Shown: positions 18,679 through 50,398 of the stretch, in pieces
Numbering within the stretch: position 1 is the first letter of the stretch
Layout: every line of letters begins with the position of its first letter
Origin: Auricularia sp. M13
Taxonomy: Eukaryota; Basidiomycota; Agaricomycetes; Auriculariales; Auriculariaceae
Assembly (NCBI GenBank): GCA_037042915.1
Contig: CM073203.1
Location: forward strand, 2,914,001 to 2,978,000
Direction: 5' to 3'
DNA length: 64,000 nt
Notes under the pieces: model-generated
The model's input: only the letters and a program-made list of their open reading frames with translations
What the model was told of the DNA's origin: nothing
The model's database searches: none
Program-made: the position numbers and the translations under genes

Positions 18679-19283
18679 ATGCGTCTGGACCTCGCCCTCA
18701 TCACTCTCACCCTCACGCTCGCCGCATCTGCACAGACGGTGGCAAACCCGCTTGCGGGGCTTCTTTATGCGCGCCAGTCCGACTCAGCGGACACGTCGAC
18801 GGATGCGTGCGTCGGCGCGTGCGAGCAGCAGATCGTGAGCCAGAAGGAGTCCACAGTGCAGAAGTGCGCTGAGAAAGCAAATAGCGATATGTGAGTGCTC
18901 GATCTGCCAGTGTTGCTATAGAGTACCTCCGATCGCAAAGTCTCTACCCAACTGACGGCGTTCTACTTCGTCCCGCAGAAATGCGCTTCAAAAATGCTTC
19001 TGCCAGACGGGCGTGTACGATGCGAGCGCGGGGTGCATTCAGAAGTGCTTCCCGGACGGCAGCGGCGACGAGGCGGAGGCGGCGATCAAGCAGCAATGTG
19101 GTACGCTCTCAACGTTCTACTCTCCACCAGTCCTCAGCGTTTTTTCTTATGATCGTGCGTCTCCGTATAGCTGAGCTCGGAGTGACCACCGGCTCGGGAT
19201 CGGGCAACGGCGCCTCTGAGAGGGTCCGTGCGTCCAGCGCACTGGCGATGATGGTGGGCGCCGTGGCTGTCGCTGTAGTCTGA
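18679..19283 (+). CDS. CFEM-like 8-cysteine, GPI-anchor-type secreted protein 1
   Basis: Three exons (18679-18890, 18979-19100, 19171-19283) encode 148 residues. Parts in order: signal peptide (LALITLTLTLAASAQ), an eight-cysteine domain with spacing C-x3-C-x14-C-x13-C-F-C-x10-C-x3-C-x16-C, a Gly/Ser-rich link and a hydrophobic end (AMMVGAVAVAVV) expected to direct a GPI anchor. The C-x-C and final C-x3-C fit the CFEM pattern of fungal surface proteins, some of which bind haem or act at the host surface; that function is inference only. The central exon is exactly 122 bases, as in three other genes of this window. A second copy follows 460 bases downstream. Confidence 0.78.
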
Positions 19284-19745
19284 AATGCGGGGGCACGAGA
19301 TCATGATGTACGAGTACTACTGGTTTCTTCGGTGTCGGTGATTGATGTGTGTACAGATATGTAGTCTAAGGTTTGACGGGAAATGGAATGTTAGCCTGGG
19401 CGCTTCCTGTGGAATCTGCTACCGATTCGGGCGACGGCGCGAGGTCGACTGAGCTCGGGACTCGTCCAGTCAGTTGGCCCGGTTGATGTTGCTCCACGGG
19501 GCTTGAGCGAAGGAGAGAGAGCGAATGTTGCTGGTCGCCCCCGTGAGATTAGACGCACTGGACATCACCTGGAAGCCGTCTTTGACACAATGGCAATTGG
19601 CAATGGAGACGCCGATCTGCCAGTGGCAAGTGCTACTAGATGGGCGTGCATAGGGAACGACTAGTGCAGGGCCAGCGGGCACTTAAAGACGCTGTATCAG
19701 CAGCTTGTAGGCAGCCGTCCCAGTGTGATCCCAACCACAGCAAAA

Positions 19746-20362
19746 ATGCGTCTCATACCGACAGTGCTCGCTCTCACCCTCATGACCCTTACCTCCTCCG
19801 AATCTGCCTACGCGTCCGACCCGCTGGCAGGGCTTCTCATCCGCCGCCAACTCCCAGGCGCGCCGGGCTCAGACGAATCGTCGTGCGCTGCGACATGCGA
19901 GAAGCAGCTTGCGAGCCAGCAGGACCCTGCGATTGAGAAATGCGGGCAGCAGGCCAGCGACGACCCGTGAGTACCATGGGCAGTTCGTACTGGCTGCTTA
20001 CAGTAATGTTCTGCAGGACGGCGCTGCAGAAGTGTTTCTGCCAGGCGGGGATATACGCTGCGACTGCGGCCTGCATCGATAAGTGCTTCCAGAACGGCAC
20101 CGGGCACGATGCGGAGGAGGCTATTAAGCAGCGGTGTGGTACGTACGCTCTGATCTGAGACAGTCCTACCTACGTATGCTGTCTCTCATGATTTATTTAT
20201 CTAGCGGACCTCGGGGTTGGTACTGGCTCTGGCACTGGAAAAGCGGACGACACGACCGGTTCTAACGCGGGCAACGGAGATAACGGCGCTTCTGGCGGGG
20301 CGAGGCTTGGAGTCTATGCGACGCTGGCCTTGGTGGGCGTCGTCGTAGTTACCTTGATATGA
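19746..20362 (+). CDS. CFEM-like 8-cysteine, GPI-anchor-type secreted protein 2
   Basis: Tandem paralogue of the preceding gene: exons 19746-19966, 20017-20138 (122 bases) and 20205-20362, 166 residues. Signal peptide from MRLIPTVLALTLMTL. Cysteine spacing is identical to copy 1 (3, 14, 13, 1, 10, 3, 16), and both contain LQKCFCQ and AIKQ-x-C. The tail is longer, a Gly/Asn/Asp-rich linker before ATLALVGVVVVTLI, which looks like a GPI signal. I start at 19746 rather than an upstream in-frame ATG because the leader then begins MRL as in copy 1. Confidence 0.78.
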
Positions 20363-20969
20363 GAAAAGAGAACGCCGCTCTTCCCCAATAGAATGAACCG
20401 CGGTTTATTTAAATCAAAGGTCCTCGTAATGGTGCATGTAGGGCGTACTAGAAGGTACCGGGCGTCTGAACCAGAACTGCAAGCGACTGTACCCAGGTGC
20501 CACCGCTGTTCAGGGAGTGTTTGACCTCCCGATTAGAGTACAACGCCGGGCCATCACAGAGATTCGAAGATTTGCATCTGAGGGTGTAGTGCCATGGATG
20601 GCCCGGGGAGCAGTGGAGGAAGCTGTAGATACCGGCGATGCCTCTTGCAGCCTTTTAATGGGCGCCCAGTGCATCGGAGGAGGTGTCCACGTCAACCCTC
20701 TACGAGCGCATCAAGGGACGTATTGGTTCCTGCAGTTGAACCCTCTGAGCGTGAGATGTGGCGTTTCCATGTCCATCCCGCTCAACAACAAATAACACCA
20801 GTGCATCGCGAATGACCCAAAGCAAGAGCGCGTGCTGATATGAATGCATTCATCCTTATATTGTACAGTACTACGCCAAAGAAAGAAAAAAAAGAATAAA
20901 TAACAGTCGCCAACACTAAGGGGCGCACTTGCTCACCAGAGAGACAGAAACACACTGCCCAAGTTTAAG
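20363..20969. other. Intergenic between CFEM-like 2 and lactonase 1
   Basis: Ends of two convergent genes. A frame on the plus strand (20517-20795) looks random. An A-rich run near 20880-20900 may belong to the 3' processing region. Confidence 0.45.
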
Positions 20970-22292
20970 TTAGAGCCAAAGCACGCTCCCGACCTCCTTG
21001 AGATCCAGCGCAAGGCCGGTATCCCGCAACTCGCCCCCGCCGCCGGCAACGCGCTCCCAGATCTTGACGCCGCCGCCCTCGACGCCGGCGAGCGCGACGT
21101 AGCGGTTGTCGGGCGAGAAGGCGATGCCGCGCAGGTGCTTCACGCCTTGTCCGGGAATCAGCAAGTGGACATTGAAACGAGGGAAGGGCAGCAAAGCGTA
21201 CCGGTGTGGATGCGCCGGACGAGCTTGAAGTCTGGATGTGGGGAGAACACGGCGATACTGTCGTCGCAGGTCGATAAGGCGAATGAGGGAAGGAGGGCGA
21301 GTAGAGCGTACCTGTCGCCCTTGCTATCGGGCTCGTTGCGGTTCGTCACGTAGATGAACCCGTCGTTATCGAGCAGAATTTCGGCGGCGAGCTGGGGGTC
21401 CTGCGGAGCCTTCGGCTGTGCGCGCGGTGGGTCTGCGGGTGGGGCGCTGTTCGGGTCGGCGTAGACGATTTCTGTTGGGAGGAGCGGGGCCCGAGCTGTA
21501 TTGGATGTTGAGTCGCCGAGGGTGGATAAAGTGCCGAGATGCTCTTGCGATGGCCAGGTGTGTGCGGCGAGTTGGTTCGAGAGCTCGAGGACGGTGTACA
21601 GCACGCCATCTGGAGAAAATTTGAATATAAATCAGTATAAAAAATCGGGTTCTATGGGATAATTACGCACCATGCACAAGCGCATGCCTTGGCCCACTGC
21701 CCCTAGGAAACTCCAGCGCGCCGACGACCTCCCACACGCCGTCGCTGGCGCTCTTGGCGAGCCGCCACACTTTATCGCTGCCGAGGTCGGGCACGAGCAC
21801 GTCGTTGCCAACGACGAGCACCTGGTGCGGGTGCGCGCACTCCTGGCGGTCGGGCACGATCTTGCCCGGCTCGTGCGGTGCGGGCGGCGTATAAAGGAAT
21901 TCAACCTTCTGCAGCAGCCGGTCCGCCAGGTACGGCGCGTCGGGCAGCACGCGCAGCACGCCGACGCCGCCCGCGCTGTAGTTGGCGACGAACAGCTCGG
22001 CGCCGTCAGGTGCGAGCGCCAGGTGGGTCGGGTGCTGCCCGCCGCTGGGCACTGCGCCGAGGACCTCGGGTTTGTCGGCGCCGAGGCGGAGGACGCGCAC
22101 GACGCCGCCGTCGAGCTCGCCCGTCGCGAAGTAGATGCCTTTGGCGCTGGGGTGCGCGACGAGCCATGTTGCGCGCTCGGCCGCGAGGGAGGCGTCGGCC
22201 GACAGACGCGACGCGGCGGGGTCGAAGGAGGCGATGTGGACGGTGCTGTTCGGGCCGCCGAGCGCGATGCGGTACGTCTTGCTCGCGCTCAT
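20970..22292 (-). CDS. Lactonase of the 7-bladed beta-propeller family, copy 1
   Basis: Four exons read on the minus strand: 21671-22292, 21312-21609, 21202-21257 and 20970-21145; 383 residues. It resembles the lactonase/6-phosphogluconolactonase-like family that includes fungal carboxy-cis,cis-muconate cyclase. Shared motifs are HPTHLALAPDGAELFVANY, HPHQVLVVGNDVLVPDLGSDKVWRL, FPRGSGPRHA and RGIAFSPDNRYVALAGVEGGGVKIW. These soluble propellers open or close small lactones; which one is not readable here. Splicing restores propeller strands at each junction (HALVHDGVLY, KGDSIAVFSP, HTGGVKHLRG), all of which agree with copy 2 at 39180-40548. Confidence 0.85.
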
Positions 22293-24028
22293 CGTGGGTT
22301 GGGGTCAGGAGGGGGACGTGGCTCAGACGTCATCCTGATATAGCGTTCCGTAGGATCTCGTGACCGAGTGGAGATAACGTTCAGACTCAGAGCGGAGTTG
22401 TCACCATCGCGCTTCTTTTCCTCCTCCTCCTCACCTGACCGCGGCCAGGGCTGCCCGAAAGCTGGTGGTATTGCTCTTTCGGCTGGACGTCTGGCCAGTG
22501 CGCATGACTTATAGAGCGCAACTGCTCTACACTGCCAAAAGACATTTCCAACGCATTTGGAGCCTTGGACGGCCTCAGCAGTTACCGAAGCCCGGAAAAA
22601 CGTCGTGACATCTGCCAATCTGGCTGAGCGCCCGTGTCCCATACTTGTCAACGTGATAGGAAAGTCGCCACCACATTCATACATATCTCTGTTCATACTC
22701 GTCCACTATTTTCGTCTTGTCAACGCGACGGCCAACGATCTCGGCGGCACGTCCGAGGCCAACCCACTGGCGGTCCTCTCGCAATGTGGATACAACGAGA
22801 ACGACCTCTGGAATCATTCACGCCTTCGTGACTATTACTGTCTGCCCATGTGCACCCCGTGACTTGGCCAAAGGCGGCGAGCTCGCCACCATTGGAAGCT
22901 CGCTTATTTGACAATCTCACGCTGCCTGTCCTTAATGTGTCGGGAAGACAAATGGAGGACAACAACGCTGGGCGCTGGCAGGCACGCCTTCCCGATCCGA
23001 TATCGATATCTTGCTTTCAGAGTTCCATCGTCCGAGTCCAGTACGGCGGCACTCGCGGCACTGGCAAGCATCGGAGGCGCCTCACTCCGCACTGGTTGTC
23101 TCAGGCCTCCGCGCAGTCTCGTCCTGAAGGCCGAGTTTCCGCATCTCGCGCCGCACCAAGCGCTCGCGCCAGTTTTGCGCGATAAATGCGTGGGGGGTGG
23201 AATTTTAAACATGCCTGTGGTGCGCCTTCGAATTTCTTTCCATTTATTTTCTCTTTTCTTGTGCTGATCTAACTGGTACTCATGTGCGGCGCGGACGACA
23301 GATTGATGGCGTAACGGTACTCCTCTGCACCTTCCAGCTCCCACTCTCCACACTCATCACCCCTTCGTCGATGAAGACGAACTCGTCTAGCGCAAAAGGC
23401 AAACAGGAATGTCTCTTCGTGCGACAGCCTCAGTCCGTCTCTTCGCCGCCGCCCCACATCCCGCATCCCGCCGACACTGCTGTACCAGCACGCCATCCCT
23501 CGTCTCCCGCCGTCTTGCACTCGGTGATGCTCGGACGGTGGCAGGAGGTCGCGGCGAAATCCTCGCAGTGAACGCCGAGAGGGTGGAGAGAGAACCGGAC
23601 AGAGGCGGTTGGGACGCTCGCCCAGGGCGCGGACTGCGGACCGCCCGTGACATCGATATCATTCCAGGTCGTCCGTTTCGCCCAATGATGCGGCTTTCCC
23701 TCACTCTCGCCCACTCGCAGAGCAGTCTGCCCGCCGACCCAACGGATGCGGCGCGGACCAGGACTGTGCGAATTGGCAATGCGGAATGTGGCGTGCAAAG
23801 GTAAGTACCACCAGCCCCTTCGGCGAATCGAAGTGTTCGAAACTTACCCCGTTGTAGATCTCATCAACGGCAATACTTACTTACTTTCTTCAGGCCGTTG
23901 CGATAAGCGCCTTGATGAAATTTCCAAGGCTGTTTGCGACAGAACCGCCGGTGGATTTGTCAGGCTTGACTCTGGATCTGACCTTGAGAGTCAACGTCGC
24001 GACCGGCCCCGCTTACTCCCTCGGCGCT
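22293..24028. other. Intergenic between lactonase 1 and F-box protein 4
   Basis: Over 1.7 kb without a recognised gene. Several 90-130-codon frames overlap each other on both strands in 23.2-23.9 kb, none with family resemblance. It separates two divergent genes and must contain both promoters. Confidence 0.4.
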
Positions 24029-25411
24029 ATGTACGACTGTGTTCCAGACGAGCTGTGGTCTAGCGTTTTTGACTACCTCGATTTATCTGGACTGCTGTGC
24101 GCGATGCTTATCGATAGACGCTCGCGGCAGCTCGCTCTCGCACATCGGACGTACTGGCGCGATATCACTGTGGACGCTTCAGCTGAAGACCCTCTGCTCA
24201 AGAGCGTCTCGCTGTTTAAAACCCGAATGACGCGCTCCGCCGCGCGGCCGATCAGACTATGCATCTCGCTGAAGGATCCGACCGACGTCCTTGACGATGT
24301 GCGCGATCATCTCTTCCACACCGAGTCGTTGGATATAGAGTCAAGTCCGCTGCATGCTGCCCACATCGTGGAAGTCCTCGCGTCCCCCGCGCCCATTCTC
24401 GCAGGACTGAAATTGTCGATGCGTTTTGTCTGGCCCGGGGGTGCCATGGCGGTACCTGATCTCGTCTTTCTGCCGCACACGCTCTTCGAGGGACACGCCC
24501 CGGCGCTGCGACGGCTCACTCTTTACGATATCGGCCTCCCCAATCCTCTCCCGCCCGTCTTCGAACATCTTGAAACACTCAACACCGGCTTCTTGTGGCC
24601 AGGGTTTACCCCGGCCATACCAAGTCCCTTCACCCGCTGCCCGAATCTGCGCGCATTGGAGCTTGGGGGGCCCTTCACTCTCAAAGACGGGGCATTCTGG
24701 GAACCCGAAAACTGGCGCGGGATCGACTGGCTGCTGTTCGAGTCCGAGGGCGCCGCCACGAGTTGGCATGAACTCCGCCTCCCCATCAGCCAGGTCCGAC
24801 ATGTCGGTGTCCGTGGGCCAACGGCCGCCAGTGCCGCCGCGCTTTTTTCGCACCTCGTTTCTTCCTCTGGCCGGGATCCGCTGGTCAGGCTCACGTTCGT
24901 GTACATCTTGGACTCCCACTTCCGTGCGGCACTCGACGACGTGCACACTGCGCGCTGCCGCACGGTGTGGGCCCGCACACCTTCCCCTATCGATCTTGAT
25001 CCCGAAGACGACGTTCTTCTCGAGTTGTCACGCATCTCACACTTTATAGTCGACTTTTCGATCCCTCTCTCGCTCGGCTGGGAGCTCGTCATGACTTACT
25101 TTACGTCCACCTGCATGCTGCACCTCGTTAGCATTCATCTCAGGCTGGACGAATCTTCCTCCTGGGTTATCTCGTCTCCCGAGCCCAAGCTCGCGGGCCG
25201 TCTCTCGACCATCTTTCCGGAGCTGCGCACGGTCAAGTTGTCAGCACCTGGCAGCAAAACATCGCCTGTTACGCTGGATCTCGTGACCATTGCGGAATTT
25301 GTTGCTGCGAGATTCCGAGGCGCGCCGCTTCCGGTCTTGCTTTGCCTCGCTCATATTGCCACCAGAGGGTCGTGGGACGATGTCAAATCGACGATTATTC
25401 CTGCTTCCTGA
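24029..25411 (+). CDS. F-box protein 4
   Basis: Single exon. The frame is open from 23912, but the ATG at 24029 puts the F-box at the N-terminus as in its relatives: MYDCVPDELWSSVFDYLDLS and the following RRSRQLALAHRTYWRDI. The product is 460 residues of mostly leucine-rich segments (LRRLTLYDIGLPN, LRALELGGPF). The C-terminal block around FVAARFRGAPLPVLLCLAHIA resembles that of F-box protein 3, making it the likely sister. Presumed SCF adaptor; the target is unknown. Confidence 0.85.
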   Translation: MYDCVPDELWSSVFDYLDLSGLLCAMLIDRRSRQLALAHRTYWRDITVDASAEDPLLKSVSLFKTRMTRSAARPIRLCISLKDPTDVLDDVRDHLFHTESLDIESSPLHAAHIVEVLASPAPILAGLKLSMRFVWPGGAMAVPDLVFLPHTLFEGHAPALRRLTLYDIGLPNPLPPVFEHLETLNTGFLWPGFTPAIPSPFTRCPNLRALELGGPFTLKDGAFWEPENWRGIDWLLFESEGAATSWHELRLPISQVRHVGVRGPTAASAAALFSHLVSSSGRDPLVRLTFVYILDSHFRAALDDVHTARCRTVWARTPSPIDLDPEDDVLLELSRISHFIVDFSIPLSLGWELVMTYFTSTCMLHLVSIHLRLDESSSWVISSPEPKLAGRLSTIFPELRTVKLSAPGSKTSPVTLDLVTIAEFVAARFRGAPLPVLLCLAHIATRGSWDDVKSTIIPAS

Positions 25412-25739
25412 ATCGAAACCTTTCCAGCCACAGACTTTGGGTCGTAGCAACTGTATAGTGATGGGCGGTTGGACCGTAAGAATGTGAAGGGAATCATGTT
25501 GGTCGTGCTCGACGTTTTTTGGACCGTGCGATAGTAAGATAAGTGATACTTTGATTTTTAGTGGTCGACGACATCAGTTTTTGTGATACAAGGTAACAAG
25601 AAGATACATTCTGGGCGACGAGCAGGGTGAGATAATCATTTGAAACTGTGCGCGAGCGCGCGTGGTAACTCAGACTGCGCCGCCACAAGCAAAGCCGCAA
25701 GTCGGCCGCGAAGATGGCGAATTTTCGAGAGACATGATC

Positions 25740-27086
25740 CTATGCGTCTGCAGGGGAATGACCGTGTTTGCAATCGCCAGCGACGAACGCGGAGAGCGCC
25801 TCCCTTTCCTGGGCGGAGAAGTCTTGCTCTGCGCGCTGATAGACCTTCTTGAATTCCGGCAATGTCCCCGGCGCACAGGTATGCGCGTTCAGCTTGCAAA
25901 ACAGGGCGCAAAGGTCCTTGTGCGGCGGCTCGCCCTTCCAGTCGGCGAGCTGGCATGCGCGCGAGCAGTAACGCGGCACCCTGCAGCGCGCGCACGCGGG
26001 GAACGGTTTGCCGTTTTCCTGATGAAACATGGAGAGCGTGCACGAGGGCCCCGCGCAGACGCGCGTGTCCCGGTACATCATGACCCGCGTGTGCACGGTC
26101 GTCACGGTGACCTCCTTGCAGCGACAGTGGCCTTTCGCCTCGAACCATTGGAGGATGTGTACCGGCACGGGCTCGTTGCAGTGGTCAGCCAGTTCATCGC
26201 AGCAGAAGGCGAGCTGGCTGAGCAGTGGGTCCTCCTTCCCCATGGTCGCGGTTATGGGGCCAAGGAGGCGGAGGAGCGTGGACTCGTGCCCAACAAAGAA
26301 CCGGGAACAAGCATTGGGACGCGCCCCAGGACCATCCCTCAGTACTTCAAGCACATGGGTGACATGGCAGGCGTAGCCGTGCGAACCTTCTTGCCTGGAT
26401 ATCCAAGGCGCGCGCGTGCTGATACCAGACGCGATGGGGTCCATCATCTTGAGGACAACGTCTACCAGGCGAGCGCGGAAGGGGTCCACCGCTAAAACAG
26501 GCATGATCGCTGGTCGAACAACGAGAATTAGGACAGTGAGCATGCTGAGAGGGCCTTTGCTGATGTACAGCTCGCAGTAACCCAGTAGCGCTTCGACAGT
26601 AGCCTGCACGCCGTTGGGGAAGAGCTGTTCGATGCGCGCGGGCCACCGGCCATGCTTGTCGGAAAAAGACTTGTTTGCCCTCTCCGCACGGTCCTCAAAA
26701 GCACCATCACCAAGCCGCACGGCCATTGCGAAGATTTCGGCCGCGGACAAGAGAAGGGAATTCAAGTACTCGTCGGCCTTGAACGGTCGGCAGCACGCTC
26801 GGTGAGTATTGCAACGCCTGCGGTTCGAATATAGCACGAGGGCCAGACGATCCAGTTCGTCTGAAGTGCGGGTACATGTAAGCGTCGCGATGCATGCGTC
26901 GAACAGAGCGTGGCAGTCGACTCGGAGACGGGGCATGTGCTTCGTCAGTTTGTCATCGTGTCTGCCCGCAAAAATTTGGAGGCAATAAGGGCAGACTGTC
27001 GGTTTCTGCAGGTCGGCTAAGCCGCGTCCCAGCCTGTCAGCCATGGATCTAGTTGACGAGTACGCCATTGGCAATCGAGGAACCAA
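25740..27086 (-). CDS. MYND-type zinc finger protein
   Basis: Single exon of 448 residues (434 if the ATG at 27044, MADRLGRG, is used). The MYND finger lies near residues 345-393: CAGPSC, CARCRVPRYCSRACQ, DWKGEPPHKDLC, with the usual Cys-x2-Cys, Cys-x3-Cys and His/Cys ligands. A second cysteine pair near the N-terminus (CPYCLQIF, then H and C) could bind zinc. The middle is helical and has no known domain. MYND fingers bind proline-rich peptides in partner proteins; large numbers of such genes without other domains are common in Agaricomycetes. Function is otherwise unknown. Confidence 0.85.
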   Translation of the reverse strand: MVPRLPMAYSSTRSMADRLGRGLADLQKPTVCPYCLQIFAGRHDDKLTKHMPRLRVDCHALFDACIATLTCTRTSDELDRLALVLYSNRRRCNTHRACCRPFKADEYLNSLLLSAAEIFAMAVRLGDGAFEDRAERANKSFSDKHGRWPARIEQLFPNGVQATVEALLGYCELYISKGPLSMLTVLILVVRPAIMPVLAVDPFRARLVDVVLKMMDPIASGISTRAPWISRQEGSHGYACHVTHVLEVLRDGPGARPNACSRFFVGHESTLLRLLGPITATMGKEDPLLSQLAFCCDELADHCNEPVPVHILQWFEAKGHCRCKEVTVTTVHTRVMMYRDTRVCAGPSCTLSMFHQENGKPFPACARCRVPRYCSRACQLADWKGEPPHKDLCALFCKLNAHTCAPGTLPEFKKVYQRAEQDFSAQEREALSAFVAGDCKHGHSPADA

Positions 27087-27705
27087 AGTGGATCAAGCAC
27101 GGTGTTCGGAAGTTCTGCTTCGGTAAGAAGGAACAGCGTGAGTTATCGAGCAAACTCGGGCCATAATATATGCCTACGTGTTGTTGACCAGGTTACGCGA
27201 GCGTTCGGGCTTTCGATGGGTTCAAGTTCGAGTGCAACGCGCGTCCAGCTGTCCAAACTCCGACCAACACCTCGTTCCACTGCTCTGAGGTGACGTGCAT
27301 TAGTCGGAGTGTAGAATGAAGTTCACCAATAGGATTCAACCGATTGACAGACCGTGTGGCGAGACAATGTCAACTGATTGCGTCCGAGGACGAGATGCGA
27401 TTGCGTTCTGTCGGCCGACAAACGCGCTCAGCCCTTGACGAAGGACTGTTGTGACCGGCACTCGCGAAGGTGATAGCCATGGTTGTTCGAGTAGATCAAG
27501 TGACAAAAGGCGGAGTTTTAATTTTCCTGCCTCTCGTCCTCTCGCACGAACATTGCTGCCTTATGGTCCCCTAGACGGGCTGTGCCAATTAAAAAGTTAG
27601 CGTTCCATTGTTACGGAGTTGCGCCGTTTCCTCGTGCATGATCCGTGACTGAGTTCATAACGAATGTTGAAGTATATAGCAAGTGCTCCAAGCCCAGGGA
27701 CAGTT
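27087..27705. other. Intergenic between MYND gene and CFEM-like 3
   Basis: Promoter side of the MYND gene and 3' side of CFEM-like 3. No gene or repeat recognised. Confidence 0.45.
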
Positions 27706-28350
27706 TCAGTATACAATAAGCAGGGCGCCGGATATCATCACGAAGAGACCTCCTTGAGCCCGAAGCATACCTGCGGCCCCATTGGAGGCGTTGCTGTTCG
27801 AGCCTTTGTCGGGTTTTCCGTTTGTGCTGTTATTTTCTGAGCCTGCCGTTGGGGTGACGCCCCCATTCTGGGTGCTAAGCTGAGCTACAGTATGAAAGGT
27901 TATCAATGACCGAAAGACGCAGGGGTGAGACGCTTGGGGACATACAGCATGCGGCCTCCATATCCTCCGCAGCCTCGTTCGCGTGCTCGTCCTTGAAGCA
28001 CTGGGGAATACACTTCTTGTTCTCGTCGAAGAAATCGGAAGCACACACGCAAGCTTGCTGCGCCTCGCTGTGAGACATACACCGTGGCGATGAGCAGAAC
28101 TCCGCGGAAGTGCTGACACTCTAGAGACATACATGGTCGTCTGCGCGGCGCAGTTCTGGAACTCCGTCTGGTGCGCGGCGGCGACCTGTTGTGCGCAGGT
28201 GGCGAGACATTGCGTCGTTTCGGCGTCGACGCCGTCGGCGGGGATCAGGCTCGGAAGCTCGCGCGCAAGGAGCGAAAGCGTGTTGTCCGGAGCGACAGAC
28301 GCGGCGACCAGAGCAAAAGTCAGGAAGATGAGGAGGACGAATGTGCGCAT
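27706..28350 (-). CDS. CFEM-like 8-cysteine, GPI-anchor-type secreted protein 3
   Basis: Three exons on the minus strand: 28133-28350, 27946-28067 (122 bases) and 27706-27884; 172 residues. Start at MRTFVLLIFLTFALVAAS, a clear signal peptide; a more upstream in-frame ATG would bury it. Cysteine spacing 3, 14, 11, 1, 10, 3, 16 differs from copies 1 and 2 only in the third gap (ACVCASD in place of CFCQTG). An Asn/Gly/Ser-rich linker with NNST leads to a hydrophobic tail (LFVMISGALLIVY), probably a GPI signal. Sequence identity to copies 1 and 2 is low outside the cysteines, so it is an older paralogue. Confidence 0.75.
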   Translation of the reverse strand: MRTFVLLIFLTFALVAASVAPDNTLSLLARELPSLIPADGVDAETTQCLATCAQQVAAAHQTEFQNCAAQTTMYVSRVSALPRSSAHRHGVCLTARRSKLACVLPISSTRTRSVFPSASRTSTRTRLRRIWRPHAVCPQASHPCVFRSLITFHTVAQLSTQNGGVTPTAGSENNSTNGKPDKGSNSNASNGAAGMLRAQGGLFVMISGALLIVY

Positions 28351-30659: not shown

Positions 30660-30686
30660 GGTGTATAGTGCCAGAGTCGCGTTCAT

Positions 30687-35753: not shown

Positions 35754-37207
35754 ATGAACTCGTGCGTGCACCCCACTCCCACTCCCGTTTGATTGGCTAA
35801 AGTCTGCCTCGCAGCCCTCGTCATATTCTTGGTCTTCCGATCGAGATGCAGCTCAGGATACTCTCCAACCTCGATTTCGGCGACATTGTGCAGGTCTCGC
35901 GCGTTTGCCGGCATCTCCGCGCCTTGTGTCTCGCAGAGCGCAGGTTCTGGCAAGAGCTCCCGCATGTTACCATGTCGACGCTGCACACGGTGACGCCTTA
36001 CTTTGAGCGCGCTCATCCGCTTGGGCGGGATCTGTGCATCGACGGCATCAAGCAGGCCGACCTGGGGCAGTTGACCCATGTGCTCACTCACATCCTTCCG
36101 TTAATGCGCAGCCTGCGCCTGGAGTTCGTCGCGTCTCCCGAGTGGGACGTTGTCGACGGCCCGGCGATGCAGGCGATGTGGCTCGCGCTCAGCCAGCCGG
36201 CGCCCTTGCTGGAGAAATTGGCACTGGTCACCAACGACCTGCACGACCCGATCCATAGCGTCCCATTCGACGCCCTTGGCGGTGCCCCGCTTCCGAATCT
36301 CAAGTTCCTCGCCATTAACGCATTCAAATTGGAAGAGCCGGTGGCGGCGTTCGCGCATGTCGAGTGCGTAGAGACCTGTCTCATAGCACTGGCCCCATTC
36401 AGCCAAGTACACCTGCCCTCTTCCGCGGACGCAGAATGGGAGAACAGGCGCCTGCATGAGCATTTCCCCGCCATCCGTTCGCTGGTCCTTTTTGCCATCG
36501 AACCGGCTGACGACAATGACCTTACGCATTCGGTCTTGCGGCTGCCGTACATCGACAAGCCGCTGGAAATTCTGCATCTCCAGTGGGACGGCGAAGAGGA
36601 TTTTGCCCAGGATCCGCTTACCGTTCGCTGGATTGAGCAGGGCACCAGCATGGTGACGCGGGTGACGATCGAGTATCCGGAGTCCCTCCCTGTCTGCAAC
36701 GCCGTCCTTGCGTCGCTCGCAACTGCGGGGGAGATCGATCTGTGCCTCCTCGCGACGGCCGAGGGTATGTATCACCTCATCGCGTCGGCCGGAGGACGGC
36801 AGCGCAACGCTGTTATGCAGGCAAAAGATGTGGCTGGAGCACTCGAGAGGATTCTCCGCCATCCATTAGCGGTGATCACGAGCGTGTGGATCCCGGAGCA
36901 CGATGGACTGATGAAAATCCTTGCGCAACACTGGCACTGCTCCCGGCAAACGTCGCTCGGTATCATGGTTGGTCGTCTTGGCCAGGATATCGAGTGTCCG
37001 GAAGGCGACGGCTCTACGGCAATTGGTAGCGTCAGGACGCTTTCCTTGATGGCGCCGACGGGCCGGGTCGTCCCCGCAGAAGGACTCCTGGAGTTCTCGA
37101 AGAGGCGCACACCAAATGCCAACCTCATTCGCTTCATTGGGAAGGCCACGCTCACGAATGCCGAGATTCTACGCGCGAGCATCTCGCTCGAGCTGTACGA
37201 TGAATAG
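35754..37207 (+). CDS. F-box protein 5
   Basis: Main exon 35815-37207. Starting at the internal ATG 35846 would cut the F-box in half. Splicing an eight-base first exon (35754-35761, intron 35762-35814 with gtgcgt...cag) gives MNSPRHILGLPIEMQLRIL, which restores the full motif LPIEMQLRILSNLDFGDIVQ, SRVCRHLRAL, RRFWQELP; total 466 residues. The tiny exon is an inference from this fit and from the related gene at 56419-57804, which starts MPRSLLSLPVEVL. Leucine-rich segments fill the rest. The last part (from about 37035) is duplicated in inverted orientation near 56.3 kb. Confidence 0.82.
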
Positions 37208-40548: not shown

Positions 40549-40846
40549 CTGCAGCGAAGATGCGCCGCCGCTGGATGTGGGACGCGCTTATGTAGTGGCA
40601 CGGCGGATCTTCGGTTTGCCGCTCCGAACTTGCCCCTTGATCCCGAACTGGTCAGCACGGAGGTATAGACCAACACCCATCTGAGCAGGTGCGCCAGTGT
40701 GCTGCTGGCCTTACAGTGACAGCGCGCTCTCCGTATATTCATCATCCGTTGACTCCGGATTCAGGTCTGGCGCACGTGGTTGAATGTCTTGTGAAAAATT
40801 TGACAAGTGAACACGTTCGCCGTTACGGTTTCCCTTTTCAGTCTAC

Positions 40847-42804
40847 ATGGCAGGACTTGCTACTCGTCTCGATGGAATATTAAACCAATCCGTCGCGGAC
40901 CCGAATGGCCTTCCCGGGCTTGTCTTTGGCGCAATTGATCGGAATGGTCGCGTTCTCGCGTTGCAAGCTGTTGGAAAACGTTCATTGAAGTTGTCAGACC
41001 CAGTGCGTGCACTCATTCAACTTCTGAAAGCGGCTAAATATTATTCTATTGCTCTGGTAGATGACACCAGACACCGTCTTCCCGCTTTTCTCCATCACGA
41101 AGCTCCTGGTCGCGATCGCGCAAGTATTTCTAATGGACGCACAGCGAATTTTTCTCATGCAGCGCAGAGCTATGCAGCTCTCAGAGTCCGGAAGGCTGCC
41201 TCTCGATACACCTCTGGAAGAAATTTTGTGAGCAAGTTTAACGGAGTGTCTGATATTGAACGTTGAGCACACCGACTCTGCAGCCCGCCAATCAAAGAGG
41301 TCAAGCTGCTCGAGTCGGATGGGAAATTGCGCCCTCCGAAGAATAAGATAACGATGCGGATGCTTCTAACCCATACTGCTGGCTTCGGGTGCGTCCTGGC
41401 GCCATCTATTTGTCGCACTGTACAGTTACTAATTAATTTGCGTTTTTCGTTATGAAGATACACGCACTACAGTAAAGAGCTGTACGACTTCTGGAAGAAG
41501 CGCGGCGGGCCTGAGGAGGCAGCTGGCACGCGAGAGGGGATTCTCGATCTTCCGTTAACGTTCGAGGTGCGTTTTTCTCCTTGATGAGTTGTCGCTGTAA
41601 ACGATATTATATCTTATCTGTCACAGCCGGGTACAAACTTCCAGTATGGAGTCGGTGCGTGCGGGACACCGACCGCGCAGAGATGATCAAACTTAATGAC
41701 AGGGTTTCTAGGAATGGATTGGGCCGGCGAGGTCGTGGCGCACGTCGCCGGGGTCAGTCTTGCGGACTACTGCGAGAAGCAGATCCTGCAACCACTTGGC
41801 GTGAGTTTCTTTATATTATCCCCCGGCCGCTTAGTGTCATTGATAATTTGCGACTCGCCTAGATCTCAGACATAACTTTCGCTCCAAACGAGGCGCAGCG
41901 CAGCCGTCTGGTGGGGGCGCACCGACGCGGACGCAAAGGACCCGTCGAACCTTCACGTATGCTCACTATCCACTGCACGTCGTTTTCTACTGAGTCACCA
42001 TGCGAACCTTGGACAGAACATCCTCCGTTCATCCAGAACGCACTGAAGACCCCCGCATCGGGTTTACCGTTCATCTCCGGCGGCAGCGGCGCGTTTGCTA
42101 CGGCGCCGGCGCTGCTGGACCTCCTCGCCGTTCTCTTGCGCGGCGGTGTCGGCGTGAACGGCGCGCGGGTGCTGCGCGATGAGACCGTGCGAGAGATGTT
42201 TCAGGACCAGCTCGCGCAGAGTCTGCCTGGCGTGCTGGACCAGCCGCGCAAGAGTGTCCGACCGGCCATTACGAACGACGTTCCTGCTGATCCTAAGTAC
42301 GTACCAGTGTCTTCGCATGGAAGTGGGATTTGGCTAATTCTTGACTTTTATTTTGAAGTGGGAGTGGATGGGTTCGTTGAAATTGATTCTTCCGAGTATA
42401 TTTGCTTGTCCGAGTCGCTCACGTGTCTTGCAGGGGCTGTCCTTCCAGCTCAACCTGGTTCGTGTTTACTTTTCTATAGAGATATCGACTCATAAAATAC
42501 CTCAGAAACAACTCGCTACTGGTCGCAGTGCGGGTTCCGCAATGTGGGGCGGGTAAGTGTATGATTTATTCACAGAAGCGGATGCTTACATCCACACAAG
42601 TCTAGCGAACCTTTATTACTCGTAGGCATCACTTCTCCAAGCATTACATCATCTCACACAACGCGCAGGGTCGACCCCATCAAGGGCATCGCGACAGTCA
42701 TGATGAGCCAATGTCTCCCGTTCTTTGACCCGCACGTCGTACAGCCATGGTTGAAGGCAGAAGCGGCCGTCTACGATTCGCTGAACCGCTCTTCGAAGCT
42801 GTGA
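40847..42804 (+). CDS. Beta-lactamase-like serine hydrolase A
   Basis: Thirteen exons: 40847-41002, 41061-41119, 41168-41227, 41284-41388, 41458-41566, 41627-41654, 41712-41800, 41863-41956, 42017-42300, 42434-42457, 42506-42552, 42601-42621 and 42669-42804; 403 residues. It belongs to the class C beta-lactamase/esterase family: catalytic S-x-x-K in FPLFSITKLL, then MLLTHTAGFG, GMDWAGEVVA, and SGGSGAFATA in the late part. Such enzymes cleave esters or lactams. Intron 2 has a GC donor (gcaagt) in place of GT. Exon 12 has only 21 bases (LANLYYS). Exon 10 is the least certain. No leader peptide. Confidence 0.8.
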
Positions 42805-43089
42805 CTGAGTCCACATCCGTTTAACATTCCTCTAGTTCTCCGCGTCCTCTGAACCTCCTCATGTAGCGTTCAGGGGCAAACGCTGTTTGCATGCAGCAAT
42901 CGAACAACAAATGATTGGCAGTGCATGATACTGATACACACGCGCTCACGGATTTGCGGCAGTGTAAATCCGGCGAGCGAACCTGAGTTCGGGCGATGCA
43001 CATGGACGACGCATGATGGCGCCTGTTTTTCCCATTTCTTTCTTCTCCTCTCTTCGCTTAAAGGTCTTCAGTGGCCTGTCCGTCGAGCG

Positions 43090-44704
43090 ATGCGCTCCGG
43101 GCCTTCACCTGTCAGCGCCGCGGACTTGTCAATGACTCATATGGGTCCTCCGCGTCGGCGAGATCGTCCAGTCGGGCCTCACAGCCTGGACCAGGACGGT
43201 GCATTTTACGAGCGCAAAACGCCGCCTATAGGTGGACCGAGGCCAGCGCCGCCGCCGTTCTGGCGAACCGCGTGGGCGCCGCCGCCGCATGCTGTGCACT
43301 CGCGCGGCATCTCCGGTCGCGACGCGGACTCGTGCTCGCCGTCGTTTAGCGGGCTCGCGTTTGCCGTGGGTCTGCTCGCGGGCCTGCTCATCGCGTCCGC
43401 TGCGTTCACGGGCGGCCTGTGGTGGCGCCATGTCCACCGCAAGCGACGACGCAATCGCAAGCGGTTGACCATCAACCCATACACGGGCCCGCACCACATC
43501 ATCACCGAGCCCGCGATCTCGCCGCCTGCGACGGTCGCCAACATGATGAGCTCGACGACTCAGCTCGTCACTGCGGGACAGTCGCAGCCGAACTCCCCGG
43601 GATCTCAACTTCCGCGGTCGTCTTCGACACGCTCGACTGCGGCTCACTCGGCGGCTCAGTCGGCGGCTCAGTCAAAGCTCCGTGCTAGTCGTGAGTGCTT
43701 CGTGCGGGAGCGTGCCTCAGATGCTTATTTGCACTATCAGGCTCGGAATCGTCGCTGCCGCTACCAATTGTGCACCGCGATGCGCAGGGGAAGTTCTCGA
43801 CTGTGCACCAGGCAGAGTCCGTGCGGGGCCGCCAAAGCGGCGTGGGCAGTCTCTTCTCTGCTTCTGTTGCAGGTACAGTATCGCCCCGTCTATCAGGCAT
43901 ATTTGAAATTCCTCTGATCAATCACGTGTTCAGATGGATTCCGCACGGGCGCGCACACCTCGGTGGCGTACACGGCGGAGCCTTCGACTGCGACCGCAGA
44001 ACACTTCCCGCGATCACCCATAGCCATGCCTACGCAGTCACACCCGTCTTCCCCGCATACGCCTACCGCAGCTTCGGGTTTGCCGTTCGCGGCACCGAGC
44101 CTCAGAAGTCGTGCTCTGTCACTGGAATCGCTAGCGCGCACAGCCGTGGCGCGGGATAGCGTTTCTTCTGTTGGTGCGCACTGCTTGTTGTCCCCATCCC
44201 CGATCTGGACTGCACGCTGACGACGGGTCCACCTCAGGATCTACATGGTCGTCTCGCACCCGCGTAGTGAATGCGCCGCCTCCTCTGCCACCACCTACGC
44301 AACCGCTCCCATCCATTCCTCCCGTAGAGGCGCACGCCACAGGGTCATCCTGGCGCTCTGCCTCGGACGAGAAGCGGCTTCTGCAGCTCCAAGACGCGCT
44401 TTACGCGTCGCAGACGCGTTCAAACTCAACCCCATCCAGCCCGACAGTGCATTCGCCCACTCATCATTCTACGCATTCAGCTGGCCGCACAAGCTCGCTG
44501 CGACCACTGCCAGAAGCACCCGAGGACGCACCGCCTGTACCTCAGAGCGCCCGCGACGCCAAATCGTTCCTGGCCGACGCACCACCATCGTCATTCCATC
44601 GCGCCCCGGTCAGCCCGACGCATTTCACCGCCGAGTCGTCTCATGGCCACCGCGACACGGCACCGCCGCCCGCGTACTCGCGGCCCCCGAGCAGCAGTGG
44701 CTAA
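43090..44704 (+). CDS. Single-pass membrane protein with Ser/Pro-rich cytoplasmic tail
   Basis: Four exons (43090-43690, 43741-43872, 43934-44173, 44238-44704) encode 479 residues. A proline-rich N-terminus (RDADSCSPSFS) leads to one membrane segment (GLAFAVGLLAGLLIASAAFTGG), followed at once by a strongly basic stop (HVHRKRRRNRKR). The long tail is Ser/Thr/Pro-rich, with PPPLPPPTQPLP and a closing PPPAYSRP, a possible PY-type WW-binding motif. A short repeat AAHSAAQSAAQS is coded at 43635-43676. I do not recognise the family. The architecture suggests a surface or vacuolar protein with signalling contacts, which is inference. The start at 43090 is the first ATG that leaves no odd hydrophobic leader. 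Confidence 0.7.
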
Positions 44705-45131
44705 GCTCGCCATCACCATCCCGTTGCATTCCTCTTGGACTTTTTTGATTTCGCTTTTCCACTGGCAATCCACTCTTTTGTCATTGACACGACCCTCGAC
44801 CTCCCTGACGATCACGAGCACGACTCTCACATACCTTGCCTGTAGAGGTCCCTACTACCACCACACCCGGTTTACCCTAGTTTATTACATTTGCGTCACG
44901 CTTCTGGGCCTGTATCGCTTAATTTCCCATTTTCTGCATTGCTGTCGGTACCTGTGCTTATACCAAAATAGCATGAACTCTGCGTCAGAATCACACTCGC
45001 CGAATGCGGATACTCTTTGATGCATGATTCACACCGGGATCCAAGCAATGCAACACCATCTCAGGCACAGGTTTAGAAGGAACTAGCCTAATAGCATTCG
45101 AGGGCGCTGGAATGAATACACGCAACAACGC

Positions 45132-46521
45132 CTATGCATTTACAATTTCGAGGTCATCTCTTCCAAGGTCCCGCACACTGGTCTTCCCAATCAAACCCAG
45201 CGTCAGGTCCAAATCCGCGAGAGTGCTCTTCAGCACATGCTCAACGCCACGCTGCCCAGCGATGGCGAGGCCGTACATGTACGGCCGGCCGATAAGCACC
45301 GCGCGCGCGCCCAGGGCGAGCGCCTTCAACACGTCGCTGCCCGTGCGCACGCCGGAGTCAAAGAGAACAGTCAGGCCGGAAGCCTTGACGCGCGCGTCAG
45401 CGGTGATGGCAGCTAGCGCGTCGAGGCTGGCGACGGCGCCGTCGACCTGGCGGCCGCCGTGGTTGGACACCACGATGCCCTCAATACCGTAGTCGATAGC
45501 GAGGTACGCGTCCTCGACAGTCTGAATGCCCTTGAGCACGATGGGTCCGTCCCAGTGAGCGCGTAGCACCTTAAGGTCGTCCCAGGTGCGGAACGTCGCG
45601 GAGTTAACGACGTCGAGCCAGGCGCGGCTCTTGTTGATCGTCTTGATGTTCCACAGGATACGCAGTGCGCCAAAGAGACTCCGCGGGCGCAGCAGGACGT
45701 CGATCAGCTGACGGAGACGCGTCCAGAGCGGGCGTTGATTGGCCGCGAGTTGCGCCGCGTCGTATTTCCGGTTGAACACGGGGTCGGAAAACCCGACCTG
45801 GCAGCCCTGGCCGTACAGGAACGGCAGATACGCGTTGTCCAAGTCGTTGGGACGCCACGCGAGTGCGAATGTGTCCAAGGTGACCACCAATACAGAGTAC
45901 CCCGATGCCTTGGCACGACGGAGTAGGCTGGCTGTGATGTCGTCGTGCTCGGGCTTGGGCCAGTAAATCTTGAGACAAAGGGCACGTTCAGAGGATTGAA
46001 TGTACACGGAGATGACGGCGAACCTGGTACCATCGCCTGCCATTGCCGTTTGCTGCTGCGGCCTCCTCAATCGAACGCGTCGCGGCGGTACTGAGAATCA
46101 TGGGAATGTCGAGCCTTTCGCAAGCACGAGCAGTAGCCTCCTCTCCGTCCTTATGGCAGATGCCCTGGACACCGATGGGGGCGACAAGCAACGGGCTAGC
46201 CAGTCTTTGGCCGAAGATCTCGACGCTAGTGTCGCGAACAGTAGCATCCACAAGCATACGTGGCCGAAGACGATAGCGGGAAAAAGCACCGACATTAGCC
46301 GCACAAGTGAGCCCTTGGTTGGCGCTGCCAGCGACGTAGAAGAAGTTGGCATGGGGTACCTTGCGCTTCGCCAGAGCCTCCCATTTCATGGGATCGGTTG
46401 AGAAAATCGGCGGCCGGAATTGAGCATAAATTTCGCGCAGGTATGACGAGAAAGATGTTGCAGGAGTGCTGTGGGGCTGGTGTAGCAGGGCTACATGCTC
46501 AGCGGGGCGCGTCGAAGACAT
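45132..46521 (-). CDS. FMN-dependent 2-hydroxyacid oxidase (lactate 2-monooxygenase-like)
   Basis: Two exons on the minus strand: 46024-46521 and 45132-45968 with a 55-base intron; 444 residues. Motifs in order: VPHANFFYVAGSA, LASPLLVAPIGVQGICH, ILSTAATRSIEE, RRWYQIYWPKPEHDD, ILKGIQ-type lysine block (PIVLKGIQTVEDA), the catalytic histidine motif IVVSNHGGRQVDG, FDSGVRTGSDVLKALALGA and IGRPYMYGLAI. FMN enzymes of this family oxidise L-lactate or related acids; the long N-terminal part resembles lactate 2-monooxygenase and fungal homologues. No cytochrome b2 domain and no peroxisomal SKL end, so probably cytosolic. Substrate is inferred. Confidence 0.9.
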
Positions 46522-48007
46522 TGGGTGACGGTTGGAAGAGAAGCCGGAAAACGGTCCGTTGCCGAAACCTTGACTTTAACATGAGACTGGATGACTAAGC
46601 AACCCTTCAGCAGCCGGATCTGACGTTCTGAAGGGGTACCGGCCAATGTGAATATCTAGTAGAGGCCGGGGCAGGCACAAATATATTATGTATATCCCTC
46701 ACGACGCGCTGGATGGTCCTGAAGCAATTCGCACTGCGGATTGGTTCAGTCCCGTCCAACCGCGACGGGAGAGAATTATAGTCCACAGCGCAAGGCAGTA
46801 ATGCGATGGAATGATGAAAGGCCCACGACACCACTATCCTTTATACTCGAGAACCTGCATTCAAGCCGATTTTCTGCTGGCAGGGCCTTCGCATACATGA
46901 CGCGAAAGCTGACGCGAAAGCTGACGCAATATCCGCATTGCTTCAGAGTCCAGACGTGGACCGAAGCTTGTCCATGCAGCCACATTCAGAGCCGGCGAGT
47001 GTCTCAGCGCGGGAAGCGCTGGGCCGATGGCCTGGCGCGTGTGCTTCCGCCGCACCTCGGTGTTCTCCTCACACGAGGAAGCCTTACACCGACAGCACAC
47101 GACCAATAGGACAACAGAGCCATAGTTAGAAAATCTCCCGCGCGGCTGAGCACTGCCGAAATTCCCCAACGCAGACTGCAGGAACATTCCAGGCATGGAC
47201 CGGAAAGGATACAGGTGTGGATGGTCGACTCAAGAGCGGTGGATGGTTTGAACTGAAGTGCACAAACGTGGATGGTCGGGCGTTTGCTGCAGACATCTGA
47301 CCGAGATCGTTGGTGGGTGCGAAGACCGGTGACCCTCAAATTCATACTAGCGACCGCGTCGCCCCATACTTCCCATACGCCCACTACGCGGCGGAGCGAT
47401 GGACTGAATGTGAGACTTTTGTGCCCCAAAGCCATTGTGTGCCGATCCTGTCAGTAATGAAAGTCTGAACAGGAGCTGATGCGAGTTAACCCAACCTGAA
47501 GAAGCTGACGCGGCAGGTGACGTTGAGCGTGTACAACTGCAGTGGTATACACCGCTCTGCGACCGCTAATCGATACTGATAGAGATCATGAAGAACGAGG
47601 AATCCTCGTTGTATCAGTGCGAAAATGAACTCTGAATGGTGGGAATTGGCGTTGCACCGACTCCGCGTTGAACAGAAGCCGTGTTCGTTCCGGGTATTCA
47701 TCAATACGCAGAGTGCCACATAAACTCTCCCGAGCCCCAAAATTACATCGACGTGCATACTATCTCTCCCGGGTTCTTCTGAAATCAACTATCTCTAATG
47801 CGGTCATGGGAATGCCAATAGAAAGCAGTGCTCTTATCAATTTTTGAACGATTGCAAGACAGCAAAACGAAAACATATACATGCGAAGAGTGAGATACAG
47901 TACTTTCACGATTCTGGAAGAGCGGCCGACATCTCCCTGTGGTTCTGAGAAGCAGTCGCACATGAATAAAACGGGACAGGCCATCGGACTGTTGTGCTTG
48001 TTTCAGA
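46522..48007. other. Intergenic, no gene supported
   Basis: About 1.5 kb with short overlapping frames only. Contains a perfect short tandem repeat, gacgcgaaagct twice and part of a third, at 46899-46927. Confidence 0.45.
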
Positions 48008-48517
48008 TCAAGACGGACCAGCGCCAGGGAATTCAACCGTTCCGATACGGGGAGGTGCGAGCGAGGCGACGGGAATGTCGGCCAAGCCTACAGTGGATAG
48101 ATGCGCCGTCGTAGTATGCGCCCTAGGCGCCGAAGTCGGTGCGGGTTGGACGGCGCTGACGAAGACCGAGTCCGGCGCGCCAGACTGTGCTGTTGGGTGC
48201 GCCTTTGACCCCTGCAACGCATTCACGTCACTGGGGGCAATGCCAGCCGCGCCGACAGCGTGTGCAGCGTAGTCAAAGCTGGCGGAAGCAACGGGGATAG
48301 CGCGACCGGTTGTAGTAGTGGTTTGGGGCACATGAATTGTTCCATTGATGTCTGAATCGGTCGGCGAAGGCCTAGCAAGACTAGACGTGGACATAAAGTC
48401 GCCAACAAGCAACCCGATAGGGCTAATCGCCTGCGGTTTCAAGCCCGTTGGACGAAGCACTGGCGCGGCCACGGCTTCTGTAGCAGCTACGACAAGAAGG
48501 GCGATGACGATGAACAT
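48008..48517 (-). CDS. Possible small secreted protein
   Basis: From the ATG at 48517 a classic signal peptide appears (MFIVIALLVVAATEAVAAP), followed by about 150 residues rich in Ala, Thr, Ser and Pro (PTDSDINGTIHVPQTTTTTG, ASASFDYAAHAVG). The frame is open further upstream, but that sequence holds unrelated cysteines and would bury the leader. No cysteines are present in the mature part and no GPI-type end. Low-complexity secreted or wall proteins look like this, but I recognise no family, and an intron may change the C-terminus. Confidence 0.45.
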   Translation of the reverse strand: MFIVIALLVVAATEAVAAPVLRPTGLKPQAISPIGLLVGDFMSTSSLARPSPTDSDINGTIHVPQTTTTTGRAIPVASASFDYAAHAVGAAGIAPSDVNALQGSKAHPTAQSGAPDSVFVSAVQPAPTSAPRAHTTTAHLSTVGLADIPVASLAPPRIGTVEFPGAGPS

Positions 48518-49694
48518 GGTTGGGAGCGCGGGACTCGTCAAGAGTAGTCGATGCGTCGATGATGCGCTGGCTCCTGGCCACGTGCAGACTCCGATGCAGT
48601 ATTTGTACCCTGGTCTAAGGACGGCCATGTCAGTTCCGATTGTAATTTCGGACCAGAACGACACTTTCACGGCTGGAAGTTCGATCATCATATCCGAGTC
48701 AATAGGCCGAGACCTGTCCGTCAGAGGGTTCATGGCATAACAATCCTGAAATACGAACTGGCAAGGAAGTGCGAGGACAAGGGCGAGCATGATAGGAGAG
48801 CCTGTGAGGTGTTGAGGAACCATGCCAAGTCCAGGGCGAATATAACGGAACGATTTGCGCAGAAGCAGTGGTTAGCTAGCAGGACGGAGTCCAGTAAACT
48901 GCTCTGCAGTGCGTTGATGTCGGGCAAACAGTAAAGCAGGAAATACGGAACAAGGCAGTCCCGCGCCAAGATAGCCAACAAAAACCACGCGCCCCTGAAG
49001 CAGTGCTCCGACACATTTCTAATCTCGCCCTGATGAAAATTGTCGCAAAGCTCGGAAGCGCAAGATAGCGGTTTAAGACACAATATCCAAGCAGTAGTGC
49101 TCGCGGTCTACTGGGTTCGAAGCCCGCGATTAGAGGCGTCCGTTGATGGCCATGGTGAGGAGAATGTCTTCAAGCTCCGATCAGACTCCGCCCAACCTCG
49201 TCGTTCTGCTCCTCAGCGCTGTTCGTTGCATCGCGTATCAGTGCAGTGCCTACGCATTTTCTCTGAACTTATTCTCTACTACTGGCGCGTCACGTCGAAA
49301 GGCTGGCGTAAACTGCTCGCCTAGGCTCGCAGAGAATCATTACCTATCTGGGACGAGCGCTGCACAGCCTGGATAGAATCAAGCTTGCTGCGATCATCGG
49401 CACGCCGCTCTTTCGCGTATGGAAAGCGCACAATTGCTCATCTGGGACGAGCGCTGGACGGCTGGATGGAACTCCCACCGCAGCCATCGACGGCCTTTTA
49501 CAGTTCATCATGAACCGTAAAAGGCCGTTGATGGCATCTCTGTACCAGTAAATCAAATCCGTCTCGCACATGCACTTGCACTCTGCGAGCTGATCCATAC
49601 CCACCGGTAAGCCGCTCGGCTAGGTATATATTCATCGACAGCGCCGTAGCGAGCGTTTTTTTGGCTATCTCACCGTCCCTAGTCATCATGCATC
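48518..49694. other. Intergenic with a hairpin and direct repeats
   Basis: No gene supported. Holds the direct repeat tctgggacgagcgctg (about 49349 and 49441) and the near-perfect palindrome listed next. Confidence 0.5.
49485..49534. repeat. Near-perfect inverted repeat (hairpin)
   Basis: About 24-base arms, ccatcgacggccttttacag and its partner gtaaaaggccgttgatgg, are separated by a three-base loop, with about two mismatches. Preceded by two copies of a 16-base direct repeat. It could be a terminal-repeat remnant of a small DNA element or an RNA hairpin. Confidence 0.7.
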
Positions 49695-50398
49695 ATGCGT
49701 CCCTCCGTGCTTTCTCTGTTTGTGTTCGCGCTCTCCGTCACGGCGGGGACATTTCCAGGCTATTCCATGCTGGCCGCACGCCAGTTACCCCTTCCAAGCA
49801 CTGGCAACGCTACTAGCCCGGACATCGACACCGACTGCCAGTGCTTTCAGTCATGCTTATACACTGCGGTCAAGAAACACAAGTATGAGCAAGAGGAAAG
49901 CAATAAGGATTCCGTGCAGCACGTTGCTCCGATGTTACATCAAGTCGCCCCGTTCCCTGCCCGTTATTCCCCGTTACAAATTCTCTGCCACTCCCTGCAT
50001 ATTCTTGCTCCATGCCCATTCATTTTCTCGGCCAGAGAGAACCAACAACGGTGCGCGTGTCGATCCCCATACCCGCCGGACATCAAGAAGTGCCTCAAAA
50101 AGTGTGCCACATCGTCTGCGGTGGTCGACGACCCCGCTGAGGTCAATCAGCGTTGTGGTGGGCACTTCTCCCCTTCAGTCTCAAGGGCCATTCTCGCATT
50201 CGTTCGGAATCCGAGCAGCTGAACTCAAAGCGAACGCCGCCCCATCGGTCCGTGTGCCCTGCCAACGATTCCATTCGCGCTTGCGGGGATGTTCGCGACC
50301 GGCGTGTTGCAACACTTTCATCGAAGCGCCTTGTTTCCTTTCTCCCGCATTTCCTCGTTTCTTTCGCTCCGGGGATAACTGGCTGTCGCTAAGGTTAC
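49695..50398 (+). CDS. CFEM-like secreted protein 4 (3' end uncertain)
   Basis: Exon 1 is 49695-49882 with a signal peptide (MRPSVLSLFVFALSVTAGTF). Intron 49883-50035 runs from gtatgagc to ggccag. Exon 2 is 50036-50157, again 122 bases, coding QQRCACRSPYPPDIKKC, CLKKC and VNQRC with the family gaps C-x-C-x10-C-x3-C-x16-C. The third cysteine of the other members is missing, but an extra one (DCQC) precedes the first pair. A third exon probably starts at 50219 (AELKANAAPSV matches AELG in copy 1). After that a hydrophobic GPI-like run (FALAGMFATGVLQ) is in another frame, so an extra intron, an error or decay is possible. The end given is an upper limit. Confidence 0.6.

Follow-up and report, generated by a model that had tools for sequence, protein, structure and literature searches.

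The CFEM family (PF05730) comprises small secreted fungal surface proteins with eight cysteines, for which the spacing PxC[A/G]x2Cx8-12Cx1-3[x/T]Dx2-5CxCx9-14Cx3-4Cx15-16C has been published (PMC4530338). Heme binding is a demonstrated function of the domain, and in the Candida hemophores Rbt5 and Pga7 the change of a conserved aspartate to alanine essentially abolished hemin binding (PMC4183699). Asn-type CFEM proteins with other roles have been reported in Verticillium (PMC8867779), and in Coprinopsis cinerea CFEM proteins specific to the vegetative mycelium are listed among the defence proteins (PMC4082614). Here we describe four genes located in a stretch of 64,000 nucleotides (the window) from Auricularia sp. 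M13, corresponding to positions C11:2914001-2978000 of a genome assembly of 52.1 Mb in 14 contigs, in which C11, C10, and the like denote contigs. With a probability of about 0.8, these genes are strongly diverged paralogues from the CFEM family. Most likely, the exon that they have in common was inherited as the second half of the CFEM domain, from the fourth to the eighth cysteine (C4-C8), and is not a lineage-specific module.

An earlier reading of this DNA, made from the sequence only, had proposed three exons for each gene, and models consistent with splicing were obtained in 4/4 cases, all junctions being predicted. Copy 1, on the forward strand (148 amino acids), consists of exon A (18679-18890), which encodes a leader and C1-x3-C2-x14-C3 and ends in phase 2, exon B (18979-19100), and exon C (19171-19283), which encodes a Gly/Ser linker and a hydrophobic tail resembling those that direct glycosylphosphatidylinositol (GPI) anchoring. 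Copy 2, also on the forward strand (166 amino acids), is predicted at 19746-19966, 20017-20138, and 20205-20362, the last exon again encoding a linker and a GPI-like tail. Copy 3 lies on the reverse strand (28350-28133, 28067-27946, and 27884-27706; 172 amino acids) and has an Asn/Ser-rich linker ahead of its GPI-like tail. Copy 4, on the forward strand, has exons at 49695-49882 and 50036-50157 and a third exon starting at 50219. The first exon of copies 1-3 encodes the leader together with C-x3-C-x14-C; by inspection, a putative leader is present in 4/4 copies and a putative GPI-like tail in 3/4.

Exon B measures 122 bases in all four copies (1 base, 40 codons, and 1 base), lies between a phase-2 intron and a phase-1 intron, and has GT-AG borders. 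It encodes C4-x-C5-x10-C6-x3-C7-x16-C8 with identical spacing in 4/4, although only 9-26 of its 40 residues are identical among the copies, so that both the entry after two codon bases and the fixed spacing despite divergence were confirmed as first described. Eight cysteines in the CFEM order are found in three of the copies, copy 4 being the exception. The exon B pattern with AG/GT borders gave no match in 10 first-order Markov sequences (264 kb, one strand), and no whole gene model was obtained in 10 such sequences when both strands were used. Copies 1 and 2 differ by substitution of the coding type: their exons B show 5, 8, and 16 differences at codon positions 1, 2, and 3, respectively, with nonsynonymous (dN) and synonymous (dS) divergences of 0.19 and 0.92, and the whole genes give dN 0.39 and dS 1.38. 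Alignment shows identity at 26/45 and 35/65 positions in their introns and at 95/225 and 111/266 positions in flanks of 300 bases.

We consider exon B most likely to be inherited because introns at the same positions and in the same phases interrupt CFEM genes elsewhere in this genome. A genome-wide search with the Pfam CFEM model yielded 30 places at E<=10, of which 14 exceed the cut-off. Small CFEM-type genes are densely clustered near one contig end (C10:84-174 kb), with 10 Pfam places (E<=10), and a CFEM-rich stretch with 9 Pfam places (C11:2.81-2.87 Mb) ends about 40 kb ahead of the window. The common anatomy of these relatives is an exon A encoding C1-C3, a phase-2 intron, an exon B encoding C4-C8, and a phase-1 donor after C8; 4/4 window copies have both the phase-2 C3-C4 intron and a phase-1 donor that directly follows C8. 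Among 15 non-window domains modelled by hand, with junctions chosen by eye, 14 carry a C3-C4 intron of phase 2, and the one at C11:2873.6 kb has a phase-0 intron; three of these domains were detected initially by a gene finder that requires phase 2, and the remainder give 11/12. In a scan of C11 that allowed 0-3 bases and could register only cores with a GT close by, the exit donor was located one base after C8 in 8/8 real cores; one further core, C11:2814287, was judged spurious. The models at C11:2870.5k, C11:1754016, and C2:1958735 have no second intron, and the exit is ambiguous at C10:140764 and C10:129k.

The length of exon B varies among the relatives. In the 17 non-window domains with both borders, it is 101, 101, 110, 116, 116, 116, 119, 119, 119, 122, 122, 122, 122, 125, 128, 128, and 128 bases, that is, 122 bases in 4/17; eight of these lengths come from the finder alone, which fixes the phases and leaves the length free. 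In one of the 122-base cases, C10:163k, three codons separate the donor from C8. In the second domain of the CFEM gene C11:2815141, exon B is 122 bases long and reads TALQQCLC at the place of PTALQKCFC in copy 2. The proposal that an exon fixed at 122 bases marks a special, lineage-specific module was rejected, since an exon of the same phases encodes C4-C8 in the C10 and C11 CFEM genes at lengths from 101 to 128 bases. For this old exon 122 bases is a common length, and all window copies have it because the spacing of their cysteines does not vary.

The 23 modelled domains do not include the Pfam hits L001, L002, and L003, in which the profile fits across C3-C4 in one open frame, or the Pfam hits L004/L005, which have unclear boundaries. 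The Pfam places C11:2339929, C11:115411, C2:4187590, and C1:7624391 were left out of the modelling, as were the first two domains, one with a frame break, of the gene at C11:2838.4-2839.3 kb. The surrounding region, L024:4300-5700 (C11:2838.3-2839.7 kb), contains a multi-domain CFEM-type gene with a frame break in its first domain. The domain at C11:2846612 was counted for exon length and left out of the 26-row domain set used for the comparisons with 1000 shuffles, the tree, and the aspartate and consensus tests. At C11:2846416, the exon A proposed by the finder looked wrong; by eye, this is domain 2 of gene 2845955, with a GC donor, and the first domain of that gene has a weak acceptor (CAAG).

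Similarity to CFEM was also observed beyond the cysteines. In a profile-profile comparison with hhalign, the four copies matched 10 CFEM domains with a probability of 82.5% and E 9.7e-6 over 50 columns. In a shuffle test, cysteines were kept in place and the shuffles that matched a profile as well as the real copy were counted. For copies 1-4, respectively, these were 1, 2, 0, and 41 of 500 with the 10-domain profile, 0, 19, 0, and 0 of 1000 with the C10 profile (11 domains), 2, 1, 3, and 11 of 1000 with the C11/C2 profile (11 domains), and 0, 3, 0, and 8 of 1000 with the profile of all 22 CFEM domains. Together with the profile match, these counts link copies 1-3 to CFEM, copy 4 being marginal. 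The spacing C1-x3-C2-x14-C3 of copies 1-3 is also present in 10/11 C10 domains and in 0/11 C11/C2 domains, and because of this common x14 loop the C10 type appears to be the likeliest source of the four copies, a placement that the tree cannot confirm.

In copy 4, C3 is missing and an additional cysteine stands two residues ahead of C1, both changes in exon A (49695-49882) and both described in the sequence-only reading. The same reading had placed its end near 50398 with a GPI-like tail, which the model does not support: exon C, itself an uncertain prediction (50219-50586), is entered where A-E-L is kept after C8 and reaches 50586 in frame, giving a protein of 225 amino acids with five further cysteines and, by inspection, no hydrophobic tail. 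By inspection, the combination of leader and GPI-like tail fits copies 1-3. We regard copy 4 as a decayed or re-purposed copy within the CFEM-derived group. A tentative alternative, compatible with CFEM descent of copies 1-3, is that copy 4, unlike the others, has become a pseudogene in which the 122-base exon is a relic. The lost C3, the gained cysteine, the third exon without a GPI-like tail, and the marginal profile scores are consistent with this, but exon B is open and its spacing exact, copy 4 beat 1000/1000 shuffles with the C10 profile, and dN in exon B is lower than dS in comparison with copies 1 and 3 (dS being saturated, and the value against copy 2 not computable).

An improbable alternative for the whole set, the stronger form of the sequence-only reading, is a lineage-specific family of surface proteins with eight cysteines that has no relation to CFEM and whose 122-base exon is fixed by structural constraint. 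It draws on the lack of Pfam matches, on the fixed spacing of the cysteines, and on protein searches of the genome. Several results weigh against CFEM descent, and the strongest of them, as regards plain PF05730 membership, is the failure of the Pfam model. The search of the four spliced proteins against PF05730, suggested as a check together with the sequence-only reading, gave 0/4 matches at E<=1, and neither the trimmed domains (0/4) nor the exon B peptides (0/4) matched at E<=10. In contrast, exon B alone was matched in 10/10 relatives (E 1.3e-5 to 0.0035), and CFEM was the best Pfam match of 20/20 non-window domains scanned, all at E<=1 and 4/20 above the cut-off. These comprised 10 proteins from the 11 non-window finder models (without 2846416; E 2.1e-5 to 0.46) and 10 further domains (without C10:129k and domain 2 of C10:84057; E 4.4e-9 to 0.043). 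The longer spliced protein, with exon A and leader added, scored below exon B alone in 9/10 of the relatives, and Pfam therefore gives no test of the joins between exons A and B. Relatives usually have x11, x4, and x6-15 where the window copies keep x10, x3, and x16 in 4/4. Five of the 30 Pfam places (C11:2209464, C11:213781, C11:2339929, C11:115411, and C5:1557495) fit the profile across C3-C4 in a single open frame, so that the C3-C4 intron is common but not universal. The hhalign match spans only query columns 2-51 of 72, and the shuffle counts are raised for copy 4 with the 10-domain and C11/C2 profiles and for copy 2 with the C10 profile. The tree, in which 1/23 inner branches is well supported and the four copies form one group in 18% of the bootstrap trees, is too weak to place them. 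Protein searches of the genome with copies 2, 3, and 4 returned, among the best candidates scored, copies from the window and, on C10, two weak places with E 0.04 and E 0.8.

The evidence for CFEM descent and against this alternative is that both intron positions and their phases recur in CFEM genes of the same genome, that copies 1-3 are similar to CFEM beyond the cysteines, and that both weak C10 places fall in CFEM-type genes. Like the CFEM proteins of this genome, including those of the C10 cluster and the C11 stretch, the window copies have the same cysteine order with C-x3-C and C-x-C, and, by inspection, a putative leader and, in copies 1-3, a putative GPI-like tail. The whole published spacing pattern was found in 0/4 copies and 0/22 relatives, and its second half in 4/4 copies and 5/22 relatives; because all 22 relatives fail the whole pattern too, the consensus decides little. 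As the copies show neither a Pfam match nor the strict consensus nor the aspartate in its consensus range, we describe all four as CFEM-derived without assigning them to PF05730. The label CFEM-like stands for the profile similarity of copies 1-3 and for the intron positions common to all four, and not for a match to the Pfam model, even with trimmed domains. PDB sequence searches with copy 3 alone and with an alignment of 10 domains gave no CFEM relative and no hits; the single hit obtained with an alignment of the four window copies, a large coat-protein subunit (E 0.17), was dismissed.

An aspartate 2-5 residues before C4 was found in 0/4 copies. Copies 1 and 2 have an aspartate six residues before C4, copies 3 and 4 have none, and among the relatives 7/22 have it in the consensus range and 15/22 do not. 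Since the aspartate is absent from this range in 4/4, a role as heme carriers is unlikely. That the four are hemophores like Rbt5 and Pga7, which bind heme or iron and relay heme through the wall, is an improbable alternative. The Candida proteins too are small surface proteins of the GPI type with cysteines in a CFEM-like pattern, and CFEM similarity, the GPI-like tails, and heme binding as a demonstrated CFEM function speak for this reading, but the aspartate required for hemin binding in the Candida proteins (PMC4183699) is missing from the consensus range, and no iron-related family was found among 10 window open reading frames scanned of 57 listed (2/10 without any match).

For the CFEM-derived proteins that we favour, the leader would direct entry into the secretory pathway, and disulfides would hold a compact domain, the second half of which is encoded by the exon that lies between the phase-2 C3-C4 intron and the phase-1 intron immediately following C8. 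In copies 1-3, a Gly/Ser/Asn-rich linker and a putative GPI anchor may then display the domain on the hyphal membrane or wall. As the heme-ligand aspartate is missing from its usual place, the role is probably in the wall, in ligand binding, or in mycelial defence and not in heme carrying; we favour surface proteins rich in disulfides that belong to the hyphal wall and may serve in defence. The secreted CFEM proteins of Coprinopsis cinerea (PMC4082614), also from a mushroom-forming fungus, are likened to them by description and not by sequence.

Three CFEM genes with two domains each, C11:2852966, C11:2815141, and C10:84057 (L022, L025, and L042), have the intron phases 2,1,2,1; they were first found by the phase-demanding finder, in the first domain only. 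Each CFEM unit in these genes has phase-1 introns at its borders and a phase-2 intron inside, and whole units can therefore be duplicated in frame. Such a symmetrical 1-1 module offers a simple route for CFEM domains to multiply within genes. In the accessible text of Zhang et al. 2015, unequal crossing-over is named as a route of expansion and the word intron is not used (PMC4530338), and in Sclerotinia the exon-intron organisation is reported to follow the CFEM clades (PMC13030711). In one open library, we found no literature linking CFEM with intron phase, and for exon shuffling Zhang et al. 2015 alone, through the title of a reference (PMC4530338). More speculatively, the window copies may represent a CFEM-derived subfamily that has lost heme binding and shifted C6-C7, forming a class of GPI-anchored proteins of the wall or of defence that escapes current CFEM models, and, more broadly, CFEM may have spread in this lineage as a symmetrical 1-1 module of two exons that can be added in tandem and in frame. 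Counts of CFEM genes based on Pfam probably miss diverged members, given that 0/4 copies match and 4/20 scanned relatives are above the cut-off, and the intron layout provides an independent homology marker for locating them.

The neighbouring genes in the window include F-box-like, lactonase, and GH88 genes, as identified in the Pfam scan of 10 of the 57 listed open reading frames. Five F-box-like frames are above the Pfam cut-off, at window positions 9110-10528 (-), 11043-12473, 15635-17299, 35801-37204, and 56422-57825 (-), and a sixth, weak one is located at 23858-25408. Elsewhere on the same contig, C11:29932-32731 (+) and C11:2417047-2419837 (-) are inverted copies, 98% identical and about 2.4 Mb apart, and the Pfam CFEM places on C11 pair likewise (31k/2418k, 115k/2340k, and 214k/2209k). 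Such pairing points to an inverted duplication of large size or, alternatively, to one contig in which two haplotypes have been joined.

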